Origin: Hymenobacter sp. DG25A
GTDB taxonomy: Bacteria > Bacteroidota > Bacteroidia > Cytophagales > Hymenobacteraceae
DNA: 64,000 bases
Assembly (NCBI RefSeq): GCF_001280305.1
Contig: NZ_CP012623.1
Span: 3,713,137 to 3,777,136, forward strand
Direction: 5' to 3'
The translations under genes and the position numbers were made by a program. Below, one piece after another: positions 22,044-32,862 of this stretch. The notes beneath the pieces are model-generated. The model was given only the letters and a program-made list of their open reading frames with translations. It was not told the origin of the DNA and made no database searches. Positions within the stretch are counted from its first letter, which is position 1. Each line of letters begins with the position of its first letter.

Positions 22044-22070
22044 TGACCGATGGTGGAGAAGGGCGCTTTC

Positions 22071-22100
22071 ATTTCCGAACACCCTGTCCATTTTTGGACA
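22071..22100 (+). promoter_or_regulatory. Upstream activator site 1 for the sigma54-type promoter
   Basis: ATTTCCGAACACCCTGTCCA followed by TTTT and TGGACA. The inverted repeat TGTCCA-N4-TGGACA (22085-22100) is a dimeric binding site. The 20-base left part is identical to the site at 25831. Its centre is 74 bases upstream of the -24 element, as in the second copy. Confidence 0.7.
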
Positions 22101-22134
22101 TAATTTGGGATAGGGATAATCTAATATTTGTATT

Positions 22135-22147
22135 CAAAATATTGATA
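22135..22147 (-). promoter_or_regulatory. IHF-like bending site 1
   Basis: On the minus strand it reads TATCAATATTTTG, which fits the E. coli IHF consensus WATCAANNNNTTR without mismatch. It lies between the activator site and the -24/-12 element, at the same place as in the second copy. Which HU/IHF-family protein would bind here is not known. Confidence 0.45.
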
Positions 22148-22165
22148 AACAATGCCTTATAAAAA

Positions 22166-22182
22166 TGGCACGGGCATTGGCT
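22166..22182 (+). promoter_or_regulatory. Sigma54-like -24/-12 promoter 1 (HlyD-TolC unit)
   Basis: TGGCACG-GGCA-TTGGCT. The -24 half is a perfect TGGCACG. The -12 half is TTGG(C) instead of TTGC, the same variant as in the second copy at 25926. Transcription would begin near 22192, 26 bases before the HlyD ATG. Confidence 0.65.
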
Positions 22183-22217
22183 ATACCTGCAGGAACCTTT
22201 ACCCTTCCTGCACGAAA

Positions 22218-23465
22218 ATGGACAGAGCAATTTCTACCGCCATTCAAACCCGCCGCCAGCGTCGTCGTTGGCTGATTGTTTTTCTGGTGGTGGCCGTAGC
22301 AATAGGCGGCCTGCTAGCTTTCCGCACGGTGCTGCGGCCCAGCGTGAAAAGCACCGATATTCTCACCGCCACCGCGGAAACCGGCGACGTAGAAGCCTCC
22401 CTCACAGCCTCGGGCCTCATTATTCCCGGCCACGAGGCCGTCATTACCAGCCCTATTCAAAGCACCATCCGGCGGGTGGCCCTACAGGTAGGGGAGAAGG
22501 TAAAGCCCGGGCAAACCATTCTGGAGCTGGATAAAGATCTGACCACCAGTAGTCTGGCCAAGCTGCAGGACGAGCAGCAGCAGAACCGCAATAAAAACTC
22601 CCAGCTGCAGCTCAAGCTGGAGCACGGCCTCAACGATTTGCAGTCTCAGGAGCAGGTGCAGCAGGTAAAAGTGCGCAGCCTGCAGTCGGCGCTGCACGAT
22701 GAGCAGTACCTGCTCAAAATAGGCGGCGGCACTACCGAGAGTGTGCGCCAGGCCGAGCTGAGCCTGAAAGTGGCCCAACTGGAGCTGCAGCGCCTGCGCG
22801 AGCAGATCCGCAACCAGCGCCTGAGCAACGCCGCCGACGTGCGCGAGCTGGGCTACACCATGCAGATGCAGGACCGCAGCATTTCCGACCTGGCCGGCAA
22901 GCTGGCCCAAGCCAACATCAGCAGCCAGCAGCCCGGCGTGGTTACCTGGGTAAACGATGAGCTGGGCACCACCGTGAACCAGGGCGACCCCCTGGCCCGC
23001 GTAGCCGACCTGACCAGCTTCCGGGTGAAAGCCTCCATTTCCGATTCCTACGCCGATGCCCTGCATGTGGGTGCGCCGGTGGTGGTGCGCCTAAACGGCA
23101 CTGACCTGCGCGGCACCATCAGCACGGTAAGCCCGGCCGTGGATAAGGGCGTGGTGAACTTCTATGCTACGCTGGAGGAAAACCACCACCCGGCGCTGCG
23201 CTCCAATCTGCGCGCCGATGTGTACGTGGTAACCAAAGCGCACAACCACGTGACGCGCGTAAAAAACGGCCCCTTCTACCAGGGCGGGCAGGAGCAGAAA
23301 GTATTTGTAGTGAAGGGCGACAAAGCCGAGCAGCGCACCGTGCGCTTCGGCGACAGCAACTTCGACTACGTGCAGGTGCTCAGCGGCCTGCAGCCCGGCG
23401 ACGAGATTATCATCTCGGACATGAAGGAGTACGATACCACGCCTCTCCTGACGATTAAAGACTAA
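22218..23465 (+). CDS. Efflux periplasmic adaptor subunit (HlyD/MacA family)
   Basis: A membrane-fusion protein of 415 residues that should link an inner-membrane ABC transporter to an outer-membrane channel. It has an Arg-rich cytoplasmic start, one membrane span (about residues 18-36, WLIVFLVVAVAIGGLLAF), a lipoyl half (EAVITSPIQSTIRRVALQVGEKVKPGQTILELD), a long Gln/Leu-rich coiled coil (about 105-225), the second lipoyl half, and a beta-barrel plus membrane-proximal domain ending LQPGDEIIISD. The frame is open upstream to 22152, but that stretch contains the -24 element, so ATG 22218 is used. TolC follows 20 bases later; ATPase and permeases lie in the second unit. Confidence 0.92.
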   Translation: MDRAISTAIQTRRQRRRWLIVFLVVAVAIGGLLAFRTVLRPSVKSTDILTATAETGDVEASLTASGLIIPGHEAVITSPIQSTIRRVALQVGEKVKPGQTILELDKDLTTSSLAKLQDEQQQNRNKNSQLQLKLEHGLNDLQSQEQVQQVKVRSLQSALHDEQYLLKIGGGTTESVRQAELSLKVAQLELQRLREQIRNQRLSNAADVRELGYTMQMQDRSISDLAGKLAQANISSQQPGVVTWVNDELGTTVNQGDPLARVADLTSFRVKASISDSYADALHVGAPVVVRLNGTDLRGTISTVSPAVDKGVVNFYATLEENHHPALRSNLRADVYVVTKAHNHVTRVKNGPFYQGGQEQKVFVVKGDKAEQRTVRFGDSNFDYVQVLSGLQPGDEIIISDMKEYDTTPLLTIKD

Positions 23466-23485
23466 CTCCGCGCCTTTCCTGAGCT

Positions 23486-24940
23486 ATGAAACGTTTTCTA
23501 TTTGTCGCTTTGCTGTTGGTGCCCGGGCTGCGCCTGACTGCCCAGGCCCCCCCCGCGCCGCTCACCCTGGAGCAGGTAATTGCCCAGGCACTGGCGCAGT
23601 CATCGGTAGCCAGGCAGGCGCAGACCAACCGCGAAACCAGCTATTGGCAGTGGCGCACCTATCGCGCCAACTACCGCCCCCAGCTGGCCCTGCAGGGTGC
23701 CATTCCGGACTTCAGCCGCCAGATAGCCCCGGTAGTGCAGCCCGATGGCACCACCGCCTTCCGGGCCGTGCGCTTCAACAACTCCAACCTGGCGGCCACC
23801 CTCACCCAGAATATTGGCTTCACCGGCGGGCAGATTATGATTGCCTCCGAGATGCAGCGCTTCGATAATTTTAACACCAGCCAGCGCAGCTATAGCAACC
23901 GGCCCATTGGCATTGGCCTCACGCAGCCCCTGGGCGCATACAACTCCCTGCGCTGGGCCCGGCAAATTGAGCCTTTGCGCTACCAGGAGTCGCAGCGGCA
24001 GTACGTGGAGGAGCGCGAGAACATTGCCCAGCGCATTACGGAGCTGTATTTCGATGTGCTTCTGCAGCAGGTGAATGCCTCAGTAGCCCGGCAGAACGTG
24101 CAAGCCAACGAAGATCTGTTCCGGATAGGGCAGGAGCGCTACAAGCTGGGCCGCCTCTCGCAGAGCGACCTGCTGCTGCTGGAGCTCAACCTGCTGAATT
24201 CCCGCCGGGCCCTGGGGCAGGCCCTGCTGGAGGCCCAGAGCGCCGCCATTGACCTGCAGAGCTACACCGGCCTGAGCGCCGAGGCGCTGCAGCTGGCTAT
24301 TCCTACCGCCGCGCCGCGCTTCCCGGTGCCCACAGATCAGGCGCTGGCGCAGGCCCGCCAGAACCGGCGCGAGTCGCTGGTGTTCCGGCGGCGTTTGCTG
24401 CAGGCCGAGAGTGAGGTGGCACGCGCCAAAGGCACTACCGGCTTTCAGGCCAGTCTGGTGGCCAACCTGGGCTACATGAACCAGGCTGAAACGTTCTGGT
24501 CGAGCTACAACAACCCACAGGACCAGCAGCAGGTGCGCCTGGCCTTCTCGGTGCCTATTCTGGACTGGGGCCGGCAGAAATCCATTGTGAAAACTGCCGA
24601 GCTCAACCGCCAACAGGTGCAGCAAACCGTAGCCCAGGAGCAGCAGACGTTTGAGCAGTCGGTGCTCACGCAGGCCGCCCAGCTCAGCAGCCTCAACGAG
24701 CAGCTGGACCTAGCCGCCCGCGCCGATACGCTGGCCCAGCGCCGCTACGATATTGCCCGCGCCACCTACCAGGTGGGCCGCATCAGCCTCACGGACCTGA
24801 ACATTGCCCTCAACGAAAAAGACCAGGCCAAGCGCAGCTACATTGCCGCGCTGCGCGCCAGTTGGGTGGCTCACTACCGCCTGCGCGCCCTCACACTGTA
24901 TGATTTTGAGCGCCAGGAGCCGCTGGTGGCGAAGCAGTAA
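23486..24940 (+). CDS. TolC family outer-membrane efflux channel
   Basis: The 484-residue protein has a signal peptide (residues 1-20, cut near LTAQA) and two repeated OEP domains of long helices with short strands. The typical sites are LTLEQVIAQALAQSS at the start, RIGQERYKLGRLSQSDLLLLEL in the middle and RYDIARATYQVGRISLTDLNIAL in the second repeat. Trimers of this family span the outer membrane and periplasm and join the HlyD adaptor encoded 20 bases upstream. A nested palindromic repeat and a terminator follow. Confidence 0.93.
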   Translation: MKRFLFVALLLVPGLRLTAQAPPAPLTLEQVIAQALAQSSVARQAQTNRETSYWQWRTYRANYRPQLALQGAIPDFSRQIAPVVQPDGTTAFRAVRFNNSNLAATLTQNIGFTGGQIMIASEMQRFDNFNTSQRSYSNRPIGIGLTQPLGAYNSLRWARQIEPLRYQESQRQYVEERENIAQRITELYFDVLLQQVNASVARQNVQANEDLFRIGQERYKLGRLSQSDLLLLELNLLNSRRALGQALLEAQSAAIDLQSYTGLSAEALQLAIPTAAPRFPVPTDQALAQARQNRRESLVFRRRLLQAESEVARAKGTTGFQASLVANLGYMNQAETFWSSYNNPQDQQQVRLAFSVPILDWGRQKSIVKTAELNRQQVQQTVAQEQQTFEQSVLTQAAQLSSLNEQLDLAARADTLAQRRYDIARATYQVGRISLTDLNIALNEKDQAKRSYIAALRASWVAHYRLRALTLYDFERQEPLVAKQ

Positions 24941-24961
24941 AGCTGTTTAAAAAGCCACCCG

Positions 24962-25157
24962 AACGTCATGCAGAGCGCCGCGAAGCATATCGCGTGCTGA
25001 CGTTGCCAAACTATATGTCATCCTGAGCAAAGCGAAGGACCTTATCACCAAAGAACGAAAAGCGTAACAACGACTCGTTCCAGCGTGATAAGGTCCTTCG
25101 CTTTGCTCAGGATGACAGGCGAAGCGGGAGAGATGCTTCGACTCCGCTCTGCATGAC
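24962..25157. repeat. Nested palindromic repeats (one element inside another)
   Basis: The inner element, 25016-25048 with 25085-25117, has perfect 33-bp arms and the CGTAACAACGACTCGTTC core of the 16081 family. The outer arms, about 24962-24990 and 25131-25157, pair imperfectly (GTCATGCAGAGCG...CGCTCTGCATGAC). Together with the flanking CGCGTGCTGACGTTGCC they match the 17347 family. So a family-one element sits in the middle of a family-two element. Confidence 0.85.
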
Positions 25158-25166
25158 AATTCAAGG

Positions 25167-25204
25167 CAAAAGCCCTTTACCGTGGCACGGTAAAGGGCTT
25201 TTTG
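25167..25204. terminator. Intrinsic terminator, probably bidirectional
   Basis: AAAAGCCCTTTACCG and CGGTAAAGGGCTTTTT form a long stem with a short loop. It lies between the convergent TolC and DUF4440-like genes and has T-runs in both directions. Confidence 0.75.
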
Positions 25205-25262
25205 TATGAGTATCGGGCGGGCTGATTCTTCGCCCGGCCGGGAATGACTAAGGGATGACGGC

Positions 25263-25658
25263 TTAGGAAGCAGCCGGAATGTTGGTGTTCCAGATATCCT
25301 GGTGCAGCTTCCACTGGCCTCCCTGCTGTTTCCAGACCACCATGTATTTGCCCTGGTCTATCAGCTGGCCGGCGCCACCGAAGAGCGTGTAGTTGCCGAG
25401 TTCAATGGCGGTGTCTTCCAGCTCTTCTACCTCCCGGGTTTTCAGCTTTACCTGCTTAATGCCCATTTCCATGGCGCCCTGCCAGAACGCCTGAATGCCT
25501 GCGGTGCCCTGAATGGGCTCCATGCCGGTGGGCAGCACTACGCCACCGTCAGTGTACAGGCGGGCAATGGCGGCGGAGTCTCCGCGCGCAAAGCTGGCTT
25601 CAAAGGTGTCGTTGGCACGCCGGATTTCATCACGAATGCTTGTGGCTGTGGTAGGCAT
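25263..25658 (-). CDS. DUF4440/SnoaL-like protein (ketosteroid isomerase fold)
   Basis: The 131 residues match the SgcJ/EcaC-like NTF2 group: SIRDEIRRANDTFEASFARGDSAAIARLYTDGGVVLPTG, then GIQAFWQGAMEMG, YTLFGGAGQLIDQGKYMVVWKQQGGQWKLHQDIWN. Members are small cytoplasmic dimers with varied or unknown function. It lies between the two efflux units in the opposite direction. It starts 173 bases from the second activator site, which might therefore influence it too. No signal peptide is present. Confidence 0.85.
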   Translation of the reverse strand: MPTTATSIRDEIRRANDTFEASFARGDSAAIARLYTDGGVVLPTGMEPIQGTAGIQAFWQGAMEMGIKQVKLKTREVEELEDTAIELGNYTLFGGAGQLIDQGKYMVVWKQQGGQWKLHQDIWNTNIPAAS

Positions 25659-25830
25659 AATGAATGAGATGAAGTGGATGGGAAAAAAATGATGCTTATG
25701 TAAGATGGAAATAATTCATAAAAATAAAAATGTCATGCTGAGGGACTTAAGGGAATAATTATGGTGGGTTTCGAGTGCGTGCTACGGCTGTTTGGGAAGA
25801 CTTGGCGCAAAAGCGCACAGTAGGCGCGCC

Positions 25831-25860
25831 ATTTCCGAACACCCTGTCCAGAAATGGACA
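25831..25860 (+). promoter_or_regulatory. Upstream activator site 2 for the sigma54-type promoter
   Basis: ATTTCCGAACACCCTGTCCA then GAAA and TGGACA. The first 20 bases are identical to 22071-22090 and the dimer symmetry is kept while the 4-base spacer differs, as expected for a real binding site. The centre is 74 bases upstream of the -24 element. Confidence 0.7.
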
Positions 25861-25894
25861 ATATTTCCTAAATGCTATTTTTATAATATTGAAT

Positions 25895-25907
25895 TAAGTT
25901 ATTGATA
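25895..25907 (-). promoter_or_regulatory. IHF-like bending site 2
   Basis: On the minus strand it reads TATCAATAACTTA, a full match to WATCAANNNNTTR. Its TATCAAT part is at the same distance from the -24 element as in copy 1. Confidence 0.45.
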
Positions 25908-25925
25908 ATGAAATAATTAAGAAAA

Positions 25926-25942
25926 TGGCACGCGGCTTGGCT
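25926..25942 (+). promoter_or_regulatory. Sigma54-like -24/-12 promoter 2 (ABC transporter unit)
   Basis: TGGCACG-CGGC-TTGGCT, sharing both halves with promoter 1. Transcription would begin near 25952, giving a leader of about 100 bases before the ATPase ATG. It should drive the ATPase, the ECF sigma factor and the permeases, and perhaps the regulator pair. Confidence 0.65.
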
Positions 25943-26055
25943 AGGTAGTAGAGGGAGAGGGGTATAGCTGTACAAAAACGGACATTCCGCCCCGGTACCG
26001 CTGCCCCTGTCACCTGGTTTCTTCTTCACTCTTCCGAAAACAAACTCCCTGCCCC

Positions 26056-26790
26056 ATGAACGCTACTACCGCTTCCAGCCCATTCACAGACTCGCCGCTG
26101 GTCCAGGCTGCGGCCGCGCCGGTTATTCAGCTGGCCGACATTGAAAAGGTATACCAGACCAGCACCGTGGAAACGCTGGCCCTCAACCGCGTAAACCTCT
26201 CCATTAACCGGGGCGAGTTTGTCTCCATTATGGGGCCTTCAGGCTGCGGCAAATCCACGCTGCTCAGCATTATGGGCCTGCTGGATGAGCCCACCAACGG
26301 CACCGTGGTAATTGATGGCCGCCCCGTGACCAGCTACTCCGACCGGGAGCTGGCCCACCTGCGCAACCACAAAATCGGGTTCGTATTCCAGAGCTACCAC
26401 CTCATCAACGACCTCTCGGTGCTGGATAACGTGGAGCTGCCTCTGCTCTATCGCAAAGGCGTATCGGGCAAGGAGCGCCGCCAGCGCGCCCACGCCGCCC
26501 TGGACAAGGTAGGCCTGAATGCCCGCATGAGCCACTTCCCCAGCCAGCTTTCCGGTGGGCAGCGCCAGCGCGTGGCCATTGCCCGGGCGCTGGTAGGCAA
26601 CCCTGAAATCATCCTAGCCGACGAACCCACCGGCAACCTGGACTCCGTGATGGGAGAGGAAATCATGGACCTGCTCCTGACCCTGAACCGCCGCGACAAC
26701 ACCACCATTGTGATGGTAACCCACGACGAGCAGCAGGCCCTGAAAACCGAGCGCATCATCCGCTTCTTCGACGGCAGCCAGGTGAGCTAA
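26056..26790 (+). CDS. ABC transporter ATP-binding protein (MacB/LolD type)
   Basis: The 244-residue ATPase powers the two FtsX-type permeases encoded downstream. Walker A is GPSGCGKST (residues 60-68), Q-loop FVFQSYHLI, signature LSGGQRQRVAIARAL, Walker B IILADEPTGNLDS and the H-loop VMVTHD. The TGNLDS form and the QxTSTVETLALNRVNL start are typical of the MacB/LolD/FtsE branch. It is the first gene after the second sigma54-type promoter. About 20 residues precede the domain and look unstructured. Confidence 0.95.
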   Translation: MNATTASSPFTDSPLVQAAAAPVIQLADIEKVYQTSTVETLALNRVNLSINRGEFVSIMGPSGCGKSTLLSIMGLLDEPTNGTVVIDGRPVTSYSDRELAHLRNHKIGFVFQSYHLINDLSVLDNVELPLLYRKGVSGKERRQRAHAALDKVGLNARMSHFPSQLSGGQRQRVAIARALVGNPEIILADEPTGNLDSVMGEEIMDLLLTLNRRDNTTIVMVTHDEQQALKTERIIRFFDGSQVS

Positions 26791-26856
26791 CCTACTGCTG
26801 TCGTCTCCTGCCGCATCTATTCTGCTTTCGCCCATACCGCCTCTCTCCCTTTTGCT

Positions 26857-27456
26857 ATGAAAACCTCCGCTGCTCACTTCATTCCGGAAGCCGAACTGAT
26901 TGCGGCCTGCCGCCAGGGCAACCCCCGTGCCCAGCGCCTGCTCTACGACCAGATGGCGCCCAAAATGCTGGGCGTGTGCCTGCGCTACCTGCGCAACCAC
27001 GATGATGCCGAAGAAGCCATGATGACGGGCTTTGTGAAGGCATTCCGGGCCCTGGAGCAGTTCCGGCAGGAGGGCAGCTTTGAGGGGTGGGTGCGCCGCA
27101 TTATGGTGCGCGAAGCCCTGAACCAGATCAGCCGCCGCGAGCCGTTCATGCTCAACCTCGACGACTGCCCCGCGCAGTACACGCCCGCCCTGCCCGCCGG
27201 CATTGAGAGTGACCTGAACGCCGCCGACCTGCTGGCCCTCATTCAGGAGCTGCCCGCCGGCTACCGCACGGTGTTTAACCTGGCTGCGCTGGAGGGCTAC
27301 ACGCACCAGGAAATTGCCGGGTTGCTGGGCATTTCCGAAGGCACCAGCAAGTCCCAGCTCAGCAAGGCCCGTGCGCTGCTGCAGCGCCGCCTAACCGCCT
27401 TAACCTATTCTTCTCCCGCCTCTCATTCTGACTCCCCATGCTGCTTAGCTATCTAA
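26857..27456 (+). CDS. ECF-type RNA polymerase sigma factor
   Basis: The 199 residues contain sigma region 2 (about 17-90; YDQMAPKMLGVCLRYLRNHDDAEEAMMTGFVKAFRALEQF, given in parts YDQMAPKMLGVCLRYL and DDAEEAMMTGFVKAF) and region 4 (about 130-185; LPAGYRTVFNLAALEGYTHQ, then EIAGLLGISEGTSKSQLSKA). Regions 1 and 3 are absent, as in the ECF group. No anti-sigma gene is next to it, and it sits between an ATPase and its permease with its end overlapping the permease by 19 bases. Its target may be the operon's own products or a cell-envelope response; no target promoter was identified. Confidence 0.92.
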   Translation: MKTSAAHFIPEAELIAACRQGNPRAQRLLYDQMAPKMLGVCLRYLRNHDDAEEAMMTGFVKAFRALEQFRQEGSFEGWVRRIMVREALNQISRREPFMLNLDDCPAQYTPALPAGIESDLNAADLLALIQELPAGYRTVFNLAALEGYTHQEIAGLLGISEGTSKSQLSKARALLQRRLTALTYSSPASHSDSPCCLAI

Positions 27457-28691
27457 AAATTGCCTGGAAGGTCTTGCTGCGTCGCAAGTTCTTCACCTTC
27501 ATCAGCCTGTTCGGCATCAGCTTCACGCTGATGGTGCTGTTGGTGGTAGTGGCCATGTTCGACCACTTTAAAGGCGCCCACGCCCCCGAATCGCGCATCG
27601 ACCGGATGCTGTTCGTCTCTTTCCTCAACCAGAAATTTGCCGACGGCGGCAACATGAACACGCCGCCCAGCCCTTACTTCCTCGAAAAGTATGTGCGCCC
27701 TATGCACACGCCCGAGAAAGTAGCCCTGTTCTCTATGTTCCACGCTATTCCCAGCTACGTGGGCAACCAGAAGCTGGACCTGGACCTGAAGTTTACCGAC
27801 AACGTGTTCTGGGAGATTTTTGACTTCACCTTCCTGGAAGGCAAGCCCTACAACGCCACCGACCTGAAGAACGCCAACCGCGTGGCCGTCATCAATGAAA
27901 CCACCGCCAAAGAGTACTTCGGTCAGGCCCGCGGGGTGGTGGGCCGCACCATTGTGGTAGACCAGATCAACTACCGCGTGGCCGGTGTGGTAGCCGATGT
28001 GCCCGTAATGCGCTTCAACTCTTACGCCGAGGTATGGGCCCCGATGACCACCACCAAAGCCGACATCAAAAACCCGGTGCTGGAGGGCGAATACTTTGCC
28101 GTGATGCTGGCCCACGAAGGCCAGGACCTGCACGAGCTGCAAAGCGAGTTCAACCAGATTATTAAAAAGGTGACCATTCTCAACTCCGGTGTAAAGTCCA
28201 TTCACATCTATGCCGATACGCTGCTGGCCGCGCTCACCCGCCAGATTATCGGGGGCGGCGACTTATCCAACACTTCTGACCGAATGGTGCTGTTCTATAT
28301 AATTGTAACCGGGCTGGGCCTGTTGTTTATGATGCTGCCTACGCTCAACTTGGTGAACATCAACCTGAGCCGCATTATGGAGCGCTCCTCCGAAATAGGG
28401 GTGCGCAAGGCCTTTGGCGCTACCGGCCGGGCCCTCATGGGACAGTTTCTGATTGAAAATATCTTCCTCACCCTGGTGGGTGGCCTGCTGGGGCTGGCCC
28501 TGGCCTATGGCGCCCTGCGGCTCATCAGCGGCTCCGATTTTATAGCCTACGCGCAGTTCTCTCTCAGCCTGCCGGTATTTGGCTGGGCCCTGTTGATTAC
28601 CCTCGTTTTTGGGATAATGTCCGGGGTGTACCCAGCCTTAAAAATGTCTCGTCTCCAACCCGTGAATGCCCTGAAGGGAGGTGCCAAATGA
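27438..28691 (+). CDS. ABC transporter permease, MacB-like (first subunit)
   Basis: This 417-residue membrane protein has the MacB layout: one span near the start (about 21-42), a periplasmic MacB_PCD domain of about 240 residues, then three spans of an FtsX domain (near 283-305, 335-355 and 375-400). The FtsX motifs ERSSEIGVRKAFGATGRALMGQF and a C-terminal MSRLQPVNALKGG are present. It has no ATPase of its own, so it should pair with the ATPase at 26056. It overlaps the sigma gene at its start and the second permease by 4 bases at its end. Confidence 0.92.
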   Translation: MLLSYLKIAWKVLLRRKFFTFISLFGISFTLMVLLVVVAMFDHFKGAHAPESRIDRMLFVSFLNQKFADGGNMNTPPSPYFLEKYVRPMHTPEKVALFSMFHAIPSYVGNQKLDLDLKFTDNVFWEIFDFTFLEGKPYNATDLKNANRVAVINETTAKEYFGQARGVVGRTIVVDQINYRVAGVVADVPVMRFNSYAEVWAPMTTTKADIKNPVLEGEYFAVMLAHEGQDLHELQSEFNQIIKKVTILNSGVKSIHIYADTLLAALTRQIIGGGDLSNTSDRMVLFYIIVTGLGLLFMMLPTLNLVNINLSRIMERSSEIGVRKAFGATGRALMGQFLIENIFLTLVGGLLGLALAYGALRLISGSDFIAYAQFSLSLPVFGWALLITLVFGIMSGVYPALKMSRLQPVNALKGGAK

Positions 28692-29881
28692 TACGTCACT
28701 TATTTACTCTGATCTGGAACCGCAAGCGGTCCAACTTCCTGCTGATTGCCGAAATCGTGCTGTCGTTCTTTGTGGTGTTTGTGGTGGGCAGCCTGCTGCT
28801 CTACAACCTCAACAACTACAGCCAGCCCCTGGGTTACAACTATGAAAACGTATGGGAAGTGAGCCTGGAGCCCGGCCCCGATACCGTAGCCCGCCGCGAG
28901 AAAATTGATCTGCTCTCGCAGCGCATCAAAGCCCTGCCAGGCGTGGTGGGCATCACCCGCAGCAGCGTGAACACGCCCTTCGCCTTCTCCACCATGACTA
29001 CCGAGCTGGAGTACAAAGGCAAAGAAACACCCTCCTCGGACCGCTACAGGGTGGATGATAACTTTGCCAAGCTAATGGAAGTGAAAGTGCTGGAAGGCCG
29101 CTGGTTTAACCAGAGCGACAACGCGGCCCAGCGGGTTCCGATTATTATCAACCAGGCCTTTAAAGACGCCGTGTTTCCCAATGAAACGGCCGTGGGTAAG
29201 ATTGTAGCGGAAAAAAATAGTACCCGCAAGTGGCAGGGGCAAGTGGTAGGGGTAGTAGAATCCTTCCGCGCCGGCAGCGACTTTGCCGAAAACAGCCCGG
29301 CGTTTTTTGAGCGCCGCATGGACGATACCACCCGCATGGCGGGCTACGATTTGCCCTGGCTGCTGATTAAAGTAAAGCCCGGCCAGGGAGCCATTCTGGA
29401 GCAGAAAATGGTGAAGGAAGTGCTGAACGTAACCAAAAACTGGTCAGTGAAAACCAACACGCTGGAGCAGAACCGCATTTCCAAGCTCAAAGTTGTGCTC
29501 ACACCCATCGTGGTCCTCGGCATTGTGTGCGTGTTCCTGATTCTGAACGTGGCCCTGGGCCTGTTTGGGGTGCTATGGTACAACATCAGTCAGCGCCGCT
29601 CCGAAATTGGCCTGCGCCGTGCCCTGGGTGCCACGGGCATGGGCATTGGCGCCCAGTTTATTGGCGAGATGCTGGTGGTTACTACGCTGGGCGTATTGGT
29701 AGGCGTGGTGCTGGCCGTGCAGTTTCCGCTGCTGGGCGTGTTTGGAGTGGCGCCGACGGTGTACGGGACGGCCATTGCGGCCGCCGCCCTCCTGATTTAC
29801 CTGCTCACGGCCATCTGTGCCTTCCACCCCAGCCGCCTGGCCGCTGGTATTCAGCCGGCTGTGGCCCTGCGCGAGGAATAA
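28688..29881 (+). CDS. ABC transporter permease, MacB-like (second subunit)
   Basis: The 397-residue partner of the preceding permease has the same layout: first span at about 15-38, a periplasmic domain, then three spans from about 270 onward. The motif is QRRSEIGLRRALGATGMGIGAQF and the end LAAGIQPAVALREE. Its ATG overlaps the previous stop (ATGA), a sign of translational coupling. Two different permeases suggest a heterodimer. Substrate is unknown; MacB-like systems export peptides, macrolides, lipoproteins or siderophores. A hairpin follows. Confidence 0.92.
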   Translation: MIRHLFTLIWNRKRSNFLLIAEIVLSFFVVFVVGSLLLYNLNNYSQPLGYNYENVWEVSLEPGPDTVARREKIDLLSQRIKALPGVVGITRSSVNTPFAFSTMTTELEYKGKETPSSDRYRVDDNFAKLMEVKVLEGRWFNQSDNAAQRVPIIINQAFKDAVFPNETAVGKIVAEKNSTRKWQGQVVGVVESFRAGSDFAENSPAFFERRMDDTTRMAGYDLPWLLIKVKPGQGAILEQKMVKEVLNVTKNWSVKTNTLEQNRISKLKVVLTPIVVLGIVCVFLILNVALGLFGVLWYNISQRRSEIGLRRALGATGMGIGAQFIGEMLVVTTLGVLVGVVLAVQFPLLGVFGVAPTVYGTAIAAAALLIYLLTAICAFHPSRLAAGIQPAVALREE

Positions 29882-29885
29882 ACAG

Positions 29886-29922
29886 CCAGCCCGTTCTGTC
29901 CTAAAAACAGAACGGGCTGTTG
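29886..29922 (+). terminator. Hairpin between permease and regulator genes, possible partial terminator
   Basis: AGCCCGTTCTGT and ACAGAACGGGCT form a 12-bp stem around CCTAAAA. Only weak T-richness follows (GTTGCCTC), so it may only lower the expression of the regulator genes rather than stop transcription. Confidence 0.5.
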
Positions 29923-29972
29923 CCTCTTCCGCCGCAAATTACGTCCTTCGCCTCTTCCCCCTTTCCAGCTCC

Positions 29973-31388
29973 ATGATTCTCATTGTCGACGACGATATAG
30001 CGGTACGCACCTCTCTGGGGCTGCTATTAAAGCAGGCCGGCTACGCCACCCGTGGCGCCGCCACCCCGGAAGAAGCCCTGCGGGCCCTGCAGGAAGTCAG
30101 CCCGCAGCTGGTGCTCATGGACATGAACTACTCCCTGGACACCAGCGGCCACGATGGCCTGGATCTGCTGGCCAAGGTGAAGGTGCTGCAGCCCGCGCTG
30201 CCGGTTATTCTTATTACCGGCTGGGGCTCCATTACCCTGGCGGTGGAAGGCATGAAAGCCGGCGCCGCTGAGTTTGTGACCAAGCCCTGGAACAACGACG
30301 CCCTGCTGCAAACCATCCGCACCATTCTGGACCTGGCCACCCAGGCCGAAGCCTCCGAGCCGGATGAATCCACGCTCACCCGTCGCCAGCTCGACCGCCA
30401 GTACGACTTCAAGAACATTGTGGGCCAGGACCCGCACCTGCTGCATGTGCTGCGCAGCGTGGGCCAGGTAGCCGCCACCGATGCTTCCGTCTTGATTGAA
30501 GGCGAGTCCGGCACGGGCAAGGAGCTTATTGCCGAAGCCATTCACCAGAACAGCCAGCGCCGCCGCCAACCCTTTGTGAAGGTAAACCTGGGCGGCATCT
30601 CGGCCTCTTTGTTTGAGAGTGAGATGTTCGGGCACCGCCGCGGGGCCTTTACCGATGCTAAAGCTGACCGGGTGGGCCGCTTTGAGCTGGCCAACGGCGG
30701 CACCATTTTCCTGGATGAGATTGGCGAGCTGGACATGGGCTCCCAGGTGAAGCTGCTGCGCGTGCTGCAGGACCGCACCTACGAGGTGCTGGGCGACAGT
30801 AAGCCGCGCCGCCTGGACATCCGCGTGATTTGCGCCACCAACCGCGACCTGGCCCATGAAGTGCGCGAGGGCCGCTTCCGCGAGGATCTGTTCTACCGCA
30901 TCAACCTGATAACCGTGCGCCTGCCCGCCCTGCGCGAGCGGCCCACCGATATTCCGCTGTTGGTGCAGCACTTCGTGGATAATCTGCGGGCTACCTACAA
31001 CCGCCCGGCCCTGAAAGTGAATACCCGCGCCATGCACTGGCTGCGCGAGCAGCCGCTGCCGGGCAACATCCGGGAGCTGAAAAACCTGGTGGAGCGCGCC
31101 GTGCTGGTGAGCGGCAAGGATGAGTTGGGCCCCGAGGAGTTTCAGGCCCAATTCCAGAAAACGCCCGTGAAGGTGACGGCCGCCCCCGGCGAGCTGCCCG
31201 CCGTGGGCTCCATGACCCTGGACGAGCTGGAATCCCAGATGATTCGCAAATCCATGGACCACTACGCGGGCAACGTTTCCAAAGTAGCCAAAGCCCTGGG
31301 CCTGAGCCGCGGCGCCCTGTACCGGCGCCTGGAGAAGTACGATATTCCGTTTGATGTGGAAAAAGGCAACGCCGCCCTGGAAGGGTAG
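29973..31388 (+). CDS. Sigma54-dependent response regulator (NtrC/AtoC type)
   Basis: The 471 residues comprise a receiver domain (1-120; acidic DDD 6-8, phosphorylated Asp50, Lys in FVTKPW), an AAA+ domain (Walker A GESGTGKE, loop GAFTDA, Walker B GGTIFLDEIGEL, arginine motif EDLFYRINLI) and a Fis-type helix-turn-helix at the end (NVSKVAKALGLSRGALYRRL). The sigma54-contacting loop is GAFTDA rather than GAFTGA, a known natural variant. ATG 29973 is chosen because an upstream frame starts inside the permease gene. It is the best candidate to bind the TGTCCA-N4-TGGACA sites at 22085 and 25845 and to activate both efflux units. Confidence 0.95.
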   Translation: MILIVDDDIAVRTSLGLLLKQAGYATRGAATPEEALRALQEVSPQLVLMDMNYSLDTSGHDGLDLLAKVKVLQPALPVILITGWGSITLAVEGMKAGAAEFVTKPWNNDALLQTIRTILDLATQAEASEPDESTLTRRQLDRQYDFKNIVGQDPHLLHVLRSVGQVAATDASVLIEGESGTGKELIAEAIHQNSQRRRQPFVKVNLGGISASLFESEMFGHRRGAFTDAKADRVGRFELANGGTIFLDEIGELDMGSQVKLLRVLQDRTYEVLGDSKPRRLDIRVICATNRDLAHEVREGRFREDLFYRINLITVRLPALRERPTDIPLLVQHFVDNLRATYNRPALKVNTRAMHWLREQPLPGNIRELKNLVERAVLVSGKDELGPEEFQAQFQKTPVKVTAAPGELPAVGSMTLDELESQMIRKSMDHYAGNVSKVAKALGLSRGALYRRLEKYDIPFDVEKGNAALEG

Positions 31389-31551: not shown

Positions 31552-32862
31552 ATGACGCTGCGCGCTAAGTTTCTGCTCTTTGCCATTATTATTCACGGGG
31601 TGCTGGTGGCCTTGGCCTGGCAGGTACTGCGCCAGAATACCGTGCTGTTCATCAGTGCCGAGCTGCTGCTGCTGGTATCGGTGGTACTGACGGTGCATTT
31701 GTACCGGGGCTTTGTGCGCCCGTTTCAACTGATTGCGGCTGGCACGGAGGCCATTAAAGCCAAGGACTTCTCCACCAAGTTCATGCCCGTGAATCAGCGG
31801 GAGATGGACCAGCTGATTGAAGTTTACAACCACATGATTGACGAGCTGCGCCAGGAGCGCATCACCCAGCACGAGAAAAGCTTCCTGCTGGAGCACCTCA
31901 TTCAGGCCTCTCCGGCGGGTATTCTCTTGCTGAATTTCGATGGCCGCATTGAGTCCGTGAACCCGGCCGCCGCGCGCATGCTGCAGCTGCCCGCCCCCGC
32001 GCTGGTGGGCCAGCTGCCGGCCGCCCTGCCCGGCGACTGGGGCCCGGCCCTGAGCAGCCTGCAGCCCGGCCACCCGCAGGTGGTGCAGCTCTCGGGCGTG
32101 CAAACCTACCGCGCGCACACCTCGCACTTCCTGGACCGGGGCTTCACGCGCTACTTTATTCTGCTGGAGGAGCTCACGCAGGACCTCATCCGGCAGGAAA
32201 AGCAGGCGTATGAAAAGCTGATCCGGATGATGTCGCACGAGGTGAACAACTCCATCGGGGCCGTAAACTCCATCCTGCAGTCCTTCCACTACTACGCCCC
32301 GCAGCTGGCCGACGAAGACCGCGCCGACTTTACGGAGGCGCTGGAAGTTTCCGTGAACCGCAGCACGCACCTAGCTAACTTCATTGCCAACTTTGCCAAC
32401 CTGGTGCGCCTGCCGCCGCCCACCCTGCGCCCCGTGGATGTGCACGAGCTGCTGAAATCTACCTGCCGTCTGCTGCAGGTACAAAGCGAAAACCGCAACA
32501 TCCGCTGGCATTGGGAGCTAACGCCGGGGCCGCTGTTTGTGGCGCTGGATGGCCAGCAGCTGGAGCAGGCCCTGCTCAACATCGGTAAAAATGCCCTGGA
32601 GGCCATTGGGGAAGATGGCAATATCTGGGTGCGCACCACGGCTTCGCCGCCCACGGTGGTGCTGGAAAACGACGGGCCCGGCATTCCGCCCGAGGTGCAG
32701 CGCCGCCTGTTCACGCCCTTCTACAGCACCAAGCGCGACGGGCAGGGCATTGGCCTTACCCTCATCCGCGACATTCTGCTGCAGCACCATTTTCCTTTCA
32801 GCCTGAAAACTCAGCCCAATGGCCGCACTGCTTTCAGTATAGAGCTGACGGCCACGGAATAA
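31552..32862 (+). CDS. Membrane histidine kinase, NtrB/NtrY-like
   Basis: The 436 residues contain two membrane spans at the start (about 5-25 and 30-50) with almost no periplasmic loop, a HAMP-like region (52-105), a PAS domain (about 110-200), a HisKA motif with His229 in RMMSHEVNNSIGAVNS, and an ATPase domain (NIGKNALEAIG as N-box, ENDGPGIPPEVQ as G1, GQGIGLTLIRDIL as G2). The short loop suggests sensing of a membrane or internal signal. It is the expected partner of the sigma54 regulator 163 bases upstream. Confidence 0.93.
   Translation: MTLRAKFLLFAIIIHGVLVALAWQVLRQNTVLFISAELLLLVSVVLTVHLYRGFVRPFQLIAAGTEAIKAKDFSTKFMPVNQREMDQLIEVYNHMIDELRQERITQHEKSFLLEHLIQASPAGILLLNFDGRIESVNPAAARMLQLPAPALVGQLPAALPGDWGPALSSLQPGHPQVVQLSGVQTYRAHTSHFLDRGFTRYFILLEELTQDLIRQEKQAYEKLIRMMSHEVNNSIGAVNSILQSFHYYAPQLADEDRADFTEALEVSVNRSTHLANFIANFANLVRLPPPTLRPVDVHELLKSTCRLLQVQSENRNIRWHWELTPGPLFVALDGQQLEQALLNIGKNALEAIGEDGNIWVRTTASPPTVVLENDGPGIPPEVQRRLFTPFYSTKRDGQGIGLTLIRDILLQHHFPFSLKTQPNGRTAFSIELTATE

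Follow-up and report, generated by a model that had tools for sequence, protein, structure and literature searches.

NtrC-, GlrR- and ZraR-type bacterial enhancer-binding proteins (bEBPs) share the domain order REC-AAA-Fis, and a typical NtrC-type promoter carries palindromic sites about 100 bp upstream, a bend site and a TGGCAC -24 element. We examined a 64 kb stretch of the Hymenobacter sp. DG25A chromosome (assembly GCF_001280305.1, contig NZ_CP012623.1, forward-strand positions 3,713,137 to 3,777,136; hereafter the window) and made genome-wide counts over the 3.78 Mb single-contig genome. The window holds a MacAB-TolC-like exporter locus whose promoters and neighbouring regulator have the same layout and domain order, but differ from the NtrC-type systems in a spacing fixed across the genus, an operator downstream of the promoter, TTGG at -12 and a GAFTDA loop instead of GAFTGA. 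FleQ sites, too, can reportedly lie downstream of the RpoN site, according to work by Jyot in 2002; like FleQ, the system described here has a bEBP site past the promoter, and here upstream and downstream sites coexist at constant distances. The exporter itself resembles MacAB-TolC, LolCDE and DarBCD in its HlyD-type adaptor, TolC channel, LolD/DarD-like ATPase and FtsX/MacB permeases, and stands apart in having two separate permeases and, in part of Hymenobacter, an inserted extracytoplasmic function (ECF) sigma factor gene. E. coli MacB joins ATPase and permease in one protein; unlike E. coli MacB, the window ATPase and permease are separate proteins. Three dimer sites per hexamer are likewise used by NorR at the norVW promoter, where, as far as the excerpted report describes (PMC2941729), all three lie upstream and the sensor is a GAF domain, in contrast to the downstream site and REC domain of the present system.

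Our comparisons indicate that this is a real and well-conserved sigma54 module with operators flanking the promoter on both sides at fixed distances. The four modules of the genome, their fixed spacing within the genus, the downstream motif, the covariation between operator and regulator and the genus-wide TTGG all emerge from sequence and comparison, and the rigid module at these four sites likely defines a small regulon of the NtrC-type regulator encoded at 29973-31388 and its kinase. Among the matches listed in a search of the open-access literature, no title concerned the present system, TTGG at -12 or, for Bacteroidota, a bEBP site at a fixed downstream position.

Two control regions share one layout

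The control regions (22066-22224 and 25826-25984) lie 3760 bases apart, upstream of hlyD-tolC and of the ATPase-ECF sigma-permease-permease unit, respectively. Their elements are as follows, each upstream activating sequence (UAS) and downstream site (DS) being a copy of the operator and distances such as -81 running to the first base of the -24/-12 element.

22066-22081, + strand: UAS-A of the hlyD promoter, a weaker tandem operator with right half CGAACA; in relatives, -100 has the second-best mean upstream palindrome score
22085-22100, + strand: UAS-B of the hlyD promoter, TGTCCA-N4-TGGACA, from pattern search and comparison
22135-22147, + strand: bend-like site YAAN4TTGATW of the hlyD promoter, at the fixed place -31
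22166-22182, + strand: -24/-12 element of the hlyD promoter, TGGCACGGGCATTGGCT, from pattern match
22209-22224, + strand: DS of the hlyD promoter, the third operator copy, from the offset-26 match; contains the hlyD start codon (22218)
25826-25841, + strand: UAS-A of the second promoter, from sequence comparison
25845-25860, + strand: UAS-B of the second (ATPase) promoter, TGTCCA-N4-TGGACA, from pattern search and comparison
25895-25907, + strand: bend-like site YAAN4TTGATW of the second promoter, at the fixed place -31
25926-25942, + strand: -24/-12 element of the ATPase promoter, TGGCACGCGGCTTGGCT, from pattern match
25969-25984, + strand: DS of the second promoter, 13/16 identical with the first DS and non-coding (start codon 26056)

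A sequence-only reading of this DNA, made before our analysis, had described the two regions as a duplicated sigma54 layout, and both the layout and its positions and spacings hold: the same blocks stand in the same register in both copies, and the identical block, given there as 20 bases, comprises 21 (CATTTCCGAACACCCTGTCCA, 22070-22090 and 25830-25850). The palindrome centre lies 73.5 bases from the TGG in both copies, ATTGATAA begins 25 bases ahead of that TGG in both, and the TGGCAC of the -24 element is followed by TTG at the usual sigma54 spacing.

The second region could be a mere duplication whose likeness reflects descent and not constraint. Apart from the window, the ATPase promoter was found in 17 of the 37 named loci from Hymenobacter and Solirubrum, compared with 0 of 62 other ATPase rows, and this restriction suggests that it probably arose once, within the Hymenobacter/Solirubrum group. 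Common descent evidently contributes to the likeness of the copies, yet the spacers have drifted while the blocks stayed: in register, 27/31 bases agree in the UAS block, 15/34 in the spacer, 20/31 in the AT-rich part and 14/17 in the -24/-12 element, and past the promoter the next 26 bases agree at 4/26 and the downstream operator at 13/16. With functional blocks kept between drifted bases, and the layout persisting in 18 loci, duplication without constraint appears very unlikely.

The module occurs four times in the genome

The sequence-only reading had proposed a genome-wide search for the palindrome as a way to delimit the regulon. In the genome, TGTCCA-N4-TGGACA has two occurrences, both in the window; its reversed form, however, has one match per strand, and the palindrome taken by itself therefore carries little weight. 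The full layout (UAS, 65 bases, TGGCAC-N5-TTGG; at most three mismatches) was found at four sites, compared with none for the reversed control, and it is this search that outlines the candidate regulon: two sites in the window, one ahead of a small secreted protein and one ahead of two tandem open reading frames (ORFs) for 31-residue Arg-rich products. Each of the four modules combines TGGCAC-N5-TTGG[CG]T with three operators: one at -81, a weaker one near -100 and a third exactly 26 bases beyond the promoter. The sequence-only reading mentions neither this downstream operator nor the weaker site at -100, nor the two further targets.

When both spacers were left free (31 x 27 = 837 combinations) across 390 genomes of the order, 43 matches were obtained, 37 of them 129 bases long, against a single match for the reversed control; 30 loci out of the 43 matches were viewed, and of the four 135-base matches two were second readings of 129-base sites. 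Among named Hymenobacter hlyD rows, the best palindrome sits at -81 in 32 of 34. The core promoter pattern TGGCACGN4TTGGNT by itself showed no excess in 61 genomes of the genus (68 sites listed versus 81 reversed-pattern matches); as such plain counts do not exceed the control, only context separates true sites.

The weaker tandem site lies 19 bases ahead of the main UAS, with mean scores at -100 of 6.4 (hlyD-type promoters) and 5.8 (others) of 10 letters. Over 98 related promoters, including loci L083-L112, base preferences were seen in the UAS-A region at -96 and from -89 to -85.

An operator copy lies downstream of the promoter

In both window copies an operator-like 16-mer (TGCACGAAAATGGACA and TGTACAAAAACGGACA) follows 26 bases after the -24/-12 17-mer. 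For a wider tally, promoters were picked by their upstream site alone; L083-L112, whose search pattern had required a downstream GGACA, were excluded, as were L001, L002 and L031, which repeat sites of the same genome, and 13 Pontibacter promoters were tallied separately. The best downstream match fell exactly at offset 26 in 51/52 hlyD-type and 34/35 other promoters, leaving one exception in each class, with mean scores there of 8.4 and 7.8 of 10 letters, respectively, compared with approximately 2.5 over all offsets. In L033 the site is one base closer, at offset 25. Promoters scoring below 7 at -81 also scored below 6 at offset 26, except L083 and L084, both from the GGACA-requiring pattern.

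One alternative is that the downstream motif is no operator and is conserved either as the context of the start codon or as a 5' RNA element, a hairpin followed by ATGGAC. In hlyD promoters the site contains the start codon, so that coding constraint could help to conserve it there, and MDR/MDK protein starts also occur in relatives without the site. A leader hairpin was seen by eye in several species, with the register of positions 9/27 fully paired (5 pairs) in 19 of 55 leaders; with full pairing confined to those 19, and a register that was not the top-scoring one, the hlyD leader hairpin was rejected as a candidate RNA element. Against both versions, the motif keeps its offset in secreted-protein promoters and in 18 ATPase promoters, whose start codons lie 61-113 bases beyond the 17-mer (found with a search pattern that accepted G, C or A but not T at -12), and the leaders of promoters other than hlyD lack a comparable helix. 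We therefore regard this alternative as unlikely.

A second alternative accepts the operator and reads it as a brake: at high regulator levels a dimer bound there would block open complex formation or promoter clearance, which would limit a positive loop. If transcription starts at the usual sigma54 position, the site covers approximately +17 to +32, near the front edge of the open complex. A precedent is FleQ box 2, which overlaps the pel start and, in the excerpted report, serves repression (PMC10723142). The fixed geometry with two upstream sites, giving three dimers in all, fits a joint complex equally well, and the NorR oligomer needs three sites, all of them upstream in the excerpted account (PMC2941729). 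As three dimers make up one hexamer, we lean towards a downstream clamp that would aid assembly; a brake is a serious possibility and about as likely. This natural series of promoters with operators flanking the start site offers a direct route to ask whether a sigma54 activator can act from both sides simultaneously.

Operator sequence covaries with the adjacent regulator

The candidate regulator and its kinase are encoded directly behind the exporter genes.

29973-31388, + strand: NtrC-type response regulator (Pfam), REC-AAA-Fis helix-turn-helix (HTH), with GAFTDA loop and recognition helix LGLSRGALYRRL
31552-32862, + strand: sensor histidine kinase, with HATPase and PAS matches and HAMP just below the Pfam cut-off

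The regulator combines Response_reg, Sigma54_activat and HTH_8 in one protein, all above their Pfam cut-offs. The genome encodes one RpoN, with an intact RpoN box (ARRTVAKYRE); together with the adjacent REC-AAA-Fis regulator this agrees with the sigma54 control that the sequence-only reading had assumed. In the loop the window protein has GAFTDA rather than GAFTGA, as do most of its relatives: among 96 regulators, the window included, we counted 92 GAFTDA, 1 GSFTDA, 2 GAFTGA and 1 GSFTGA. We call the protein a loop variant that would work like the NtrC-type family. In NorR, the substitution G266D turns GAFTGA into GAFTDA and frees the protein from its sensor domain, according to the excerpted report (PMC2941729); as that variant escapes sensor control, a GAFTDA regulator may couple phosphorylation to activity in a different way.

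Across lineages the operator varies as TGT-X-C-N6-G-X'-ACA, and X follows one recognition-helix residue of the neighbouring regulator. Among loci with a readable helix (L164 had no helix match; L165, L175, L213 and L234 no regulator match), Gly accompanies C in 35 loci and a mixed T/C operator in 4 more, Ala accompanies T in 12 and a mixed operator in 2 more, and Phe goes with G in 12/12. In a quick regulator tree built without the HTH, the Phe and Ala groups each required two changes, both forced by starred branches; both Phe groups have G operators, and in L216, the second row with Ala, the T palindrome (CGTTCGGAAATGAACG) is weaker. The specificity residue aligns next to Fis Arg85, which touches a conserved guanine in Fis-DNA structures, as described in the excerpted source (PMC4784862). 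It is this covariation that most strongly indicates binding of both regions by the adjacent regulator, a well-supported conclusion, and together with the four-site regulon it favours the earlier proposal of one regulator for both units. The Gly-C, Ala-T and Phe-G pairs also provide a ready test of site choice by Fis-type enhancer-binding proteins.

The promoters could instead be driven by another enhancer-binding protein, as the genome holds four strong bEBPs, that is, three further strong Sigma54_activat matches. Yet the operator covaries with the helix of the adjacent regulator, and the two of those three proteins with readable C-termini have different recognition helices, which makes this the least probable of the explanations considered.

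Several observations weigh against a rigid module served by a single regulator. Ser helices go with mixed operators (TT 8, CT 6, CC 4, TC 1, AA 1, weak 1), as do Asn helices (AA 2, weak 2, TT 1, TC 1), so that the one-residue code is incomplete; several of these Ser and Asn rows are based on weak palindromes. The operator distance varies between genera, from -67 to -101. None of the 13 Pontibacter promoters has an offset-26 site by any of three scorings, although the operator at -81 is kept; some relatives thus do without the downstream site. Nearly identical relatives (such as window/L163/L061, L168/L169 and L194/L202) were retained where their DNA differed, and the counts given here are accordingly not counts of independent events. 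Finally, the site that the sequence-only reading had called IHF-like stands as a consensus at a fixed place, with YAAN4TTGATW at -31 in both copies and 53 of the 98 related promoters agreeing with it there in 8 or more of 9 letters, but a Pfam PF00216 search of the genome found no evident ihfA/ihfB pair; the HU/IHF-type matches were one strong match and one exactly at the cut-off.

TTGG replaces TTGC at the -12 element

At the four genome sites the -12 element reads TTGG[CG]T and not the TTGC[AT] of sigma54 promoters. The sequence-only reading had recorded TTGG(C) in both window copies, and this is no misreading: among 68 matches to WWWTGGCAC-N5-TTGNNT in 61 Hymenobacter genomes, 52 had TTGG, 7 TTGC, 5 TTGA and 4 TTGT (the reversed pattern gave 31 matches). 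Comparison across the genus thus indicates that TTGG at -12 is a habit of the Hymenobacter sigma54 lineage. In UAS-bearing hlyD promoters, found with a pattern that excluded T, the -12 base is G in 33/33 Hymenobacter and 11/11 Pontibacter promoters and C in 6/6 from Mucilaginibacter. A tally of TTGC versus TTGG in 61 Mucilaginibacter genomes showed no clearly enriched letter; hlyD promoters of this genus are mostly TGGTA-N6-TTGC/TTGT, outside the pattern used for the tally.

We compared RpoN sequences from L047 and L243-L260 at the position aligned with K. pneumoniae Tyr389, six past Arg383. Here the main RpoN carries Ala or Ser in 10/11 Cytophagales genomes, the exception being L252 with Val; two Chitinophagaceae-type genomes have Phe, and four of Sphingobacteriaceae type have Tyr. 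Sphingobacteriaceae-type hlyD promoters have TTGC or TTGT in 11 of 12 cases, judged by eye, and RpoN was read in four of those genomes. A second RpoN is present in 4/17 genomes, and both second copies that were read have Tyr at the equivalent position. In the Spirosomaceae-like loci L152, L153, L155 and L156, the usual -12 place shows neither TTGG nor TTGC. That the -12 base tracks RpoN residue 389 is a lead that comes from a small number of independent clades and has exceptions. Through the TTGG/RpoN contrast the sigma54 -12 contact becomes testable, and knowledge of TTGG would reveal sigma54 promoters of this lineage that TTGC searches overlook. Separately, seven Hymenobacter genomes share an identical TTTTGGCACCCGACTTGGTT, of which G043 has a close variant; this element may represent a further conserved sigma54 promoter.

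The exporter locus and its proposed regulatory circuit

The gene set between the two regions and the regulator comprises all parts of a MacAB-TolC-type system: adaptor, TolC, ATPase and MacB_PCD/FtsX permeases.

22218-23465, + strand: HlyD/MacA-type adaptor, Pfam HlyD_3 and NCBIfam RND_mfp above cut-off
23486-24940, + strand: TolC-type outer membrane channel, Pfam OEP
26056-26790, + strand: LolD/MacB-type ABC ATPase, Pfam/NCBIfam
26857-27456, + strand: ECF sigma factor, Pfam Sigma70_r2 and r4_2
27438-28691, + strand: MacB/FtsX-type permease A, Pfam
28688-29881, + strand: MacB/FtsX-type permease B, Pfam
29883-29922, + strand: strong hairpin between the permease B and regulator genes, perfectly paired over a 13-bp stem

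Scores stay below the NCBIfam equivalog cut-offs of the darobactin exporter (DarD 249/375, DarC 74/450 and DarB 27.9/700 bits), and the LolD and MacB scores are also under their NCBIfam cut-offs. The nearest named relative among those fetched is Hymenobacter sp. BT730, with 94 percent identity in permease A. The order HlyD-TolC-ATPase-permease-permease-regulator-kinase is found in 18 of 20 loci of the order (L158 and L159 have no TolC match, and L159 no kinase match), and exporter-regulator-kinase order, ECF aside, in most of 80 named loci. In the window and in nine named Hymenobacter loci, the ECF sigma gene separates the ATPase gene from the permease genes.

The sequence-only reading had also proposed a closed circuit; in such a circuit the regulator gene would be transcribed from a promoter under its control. 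In favour, the distance from permease B to the regulator gene is 51-414 bases in each of the 18 loci that have the second promoter, which agrees with a regulator kept together with the second unit; the gap exceeds 900 bases in 16 of 19 Hymenobacter/Solirubrum loci without it, and is 2 bases in five Runella-type loci. Against it, and against read-through into the regulator gene, the 13-bp perfect-stem hairpin occupies the gap in the window, a 66-nt stretch there folding at -32.7 kcal/mol (z -6.7). We consider the circuit plausible.

From the arrangement of sites and genes we infer the following mechanism, including its binding, phosphorylation and bending steps, whether regulation is positive or negative, and what the downstream site does. 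The kinase would phosphorylate the regulator, whose dimers would bind TGTCC-N6-GGACA at -81 and its weaker counterpart at -100; bending of the DNA at -31 would bring these dimers onto RNA polymerase-sigma54 at TGGCAC-N5-TTGGCT, and a third dimer would bind the same motif beyond the start site, so that upstream and downstream sites enclose the promoter. This would activate the adaptor-channel and ATPase-permease units of the exporter, as well as the small secreted protein and the tiny Arg-rich peptides. A more specific picture, doubtful as a whole although conceivable, is that a hexamer of two upstream dimers and one downstream dimer clamps the promoter, that the RpoN lineage with Ala/Ser reads TTGG and that the peptides may be cargo or signal of the exporter.

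Other predicted targets of the module

The third module precedes a 153-residue secreted protein (L003, 8527-8988) that has no Pfam family. Similar secreted proteins of approximately 140-175 residues follow modules L008, L025, L048, L053 and L070, and three scanned secreted proteins behind modules gave no clear Pfam family. The fourth precedes the two tandem 31-residue Arg-rich ORFs (L004, 3543-3792), which have many third-position differences and share SAAARRRLGRFVY; the L003 N-terminus resembles these 31-residue peptides. In Solirubrum L173 (16046-16445) a module lies 328 bases beyond the end of the kinase match and ahead of three short ORFs, two in tandem of 26 and 27 residues, rich in Arg and Trp, and one of 44 residues, with a long inverted repeat following. 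The products of these tiny ORFs look like small cationic peptides. Between tolC and a DUF4440 gene of the window (25016-25117) there is an inverted repeat of 43 bases with 91 percent complementarity.

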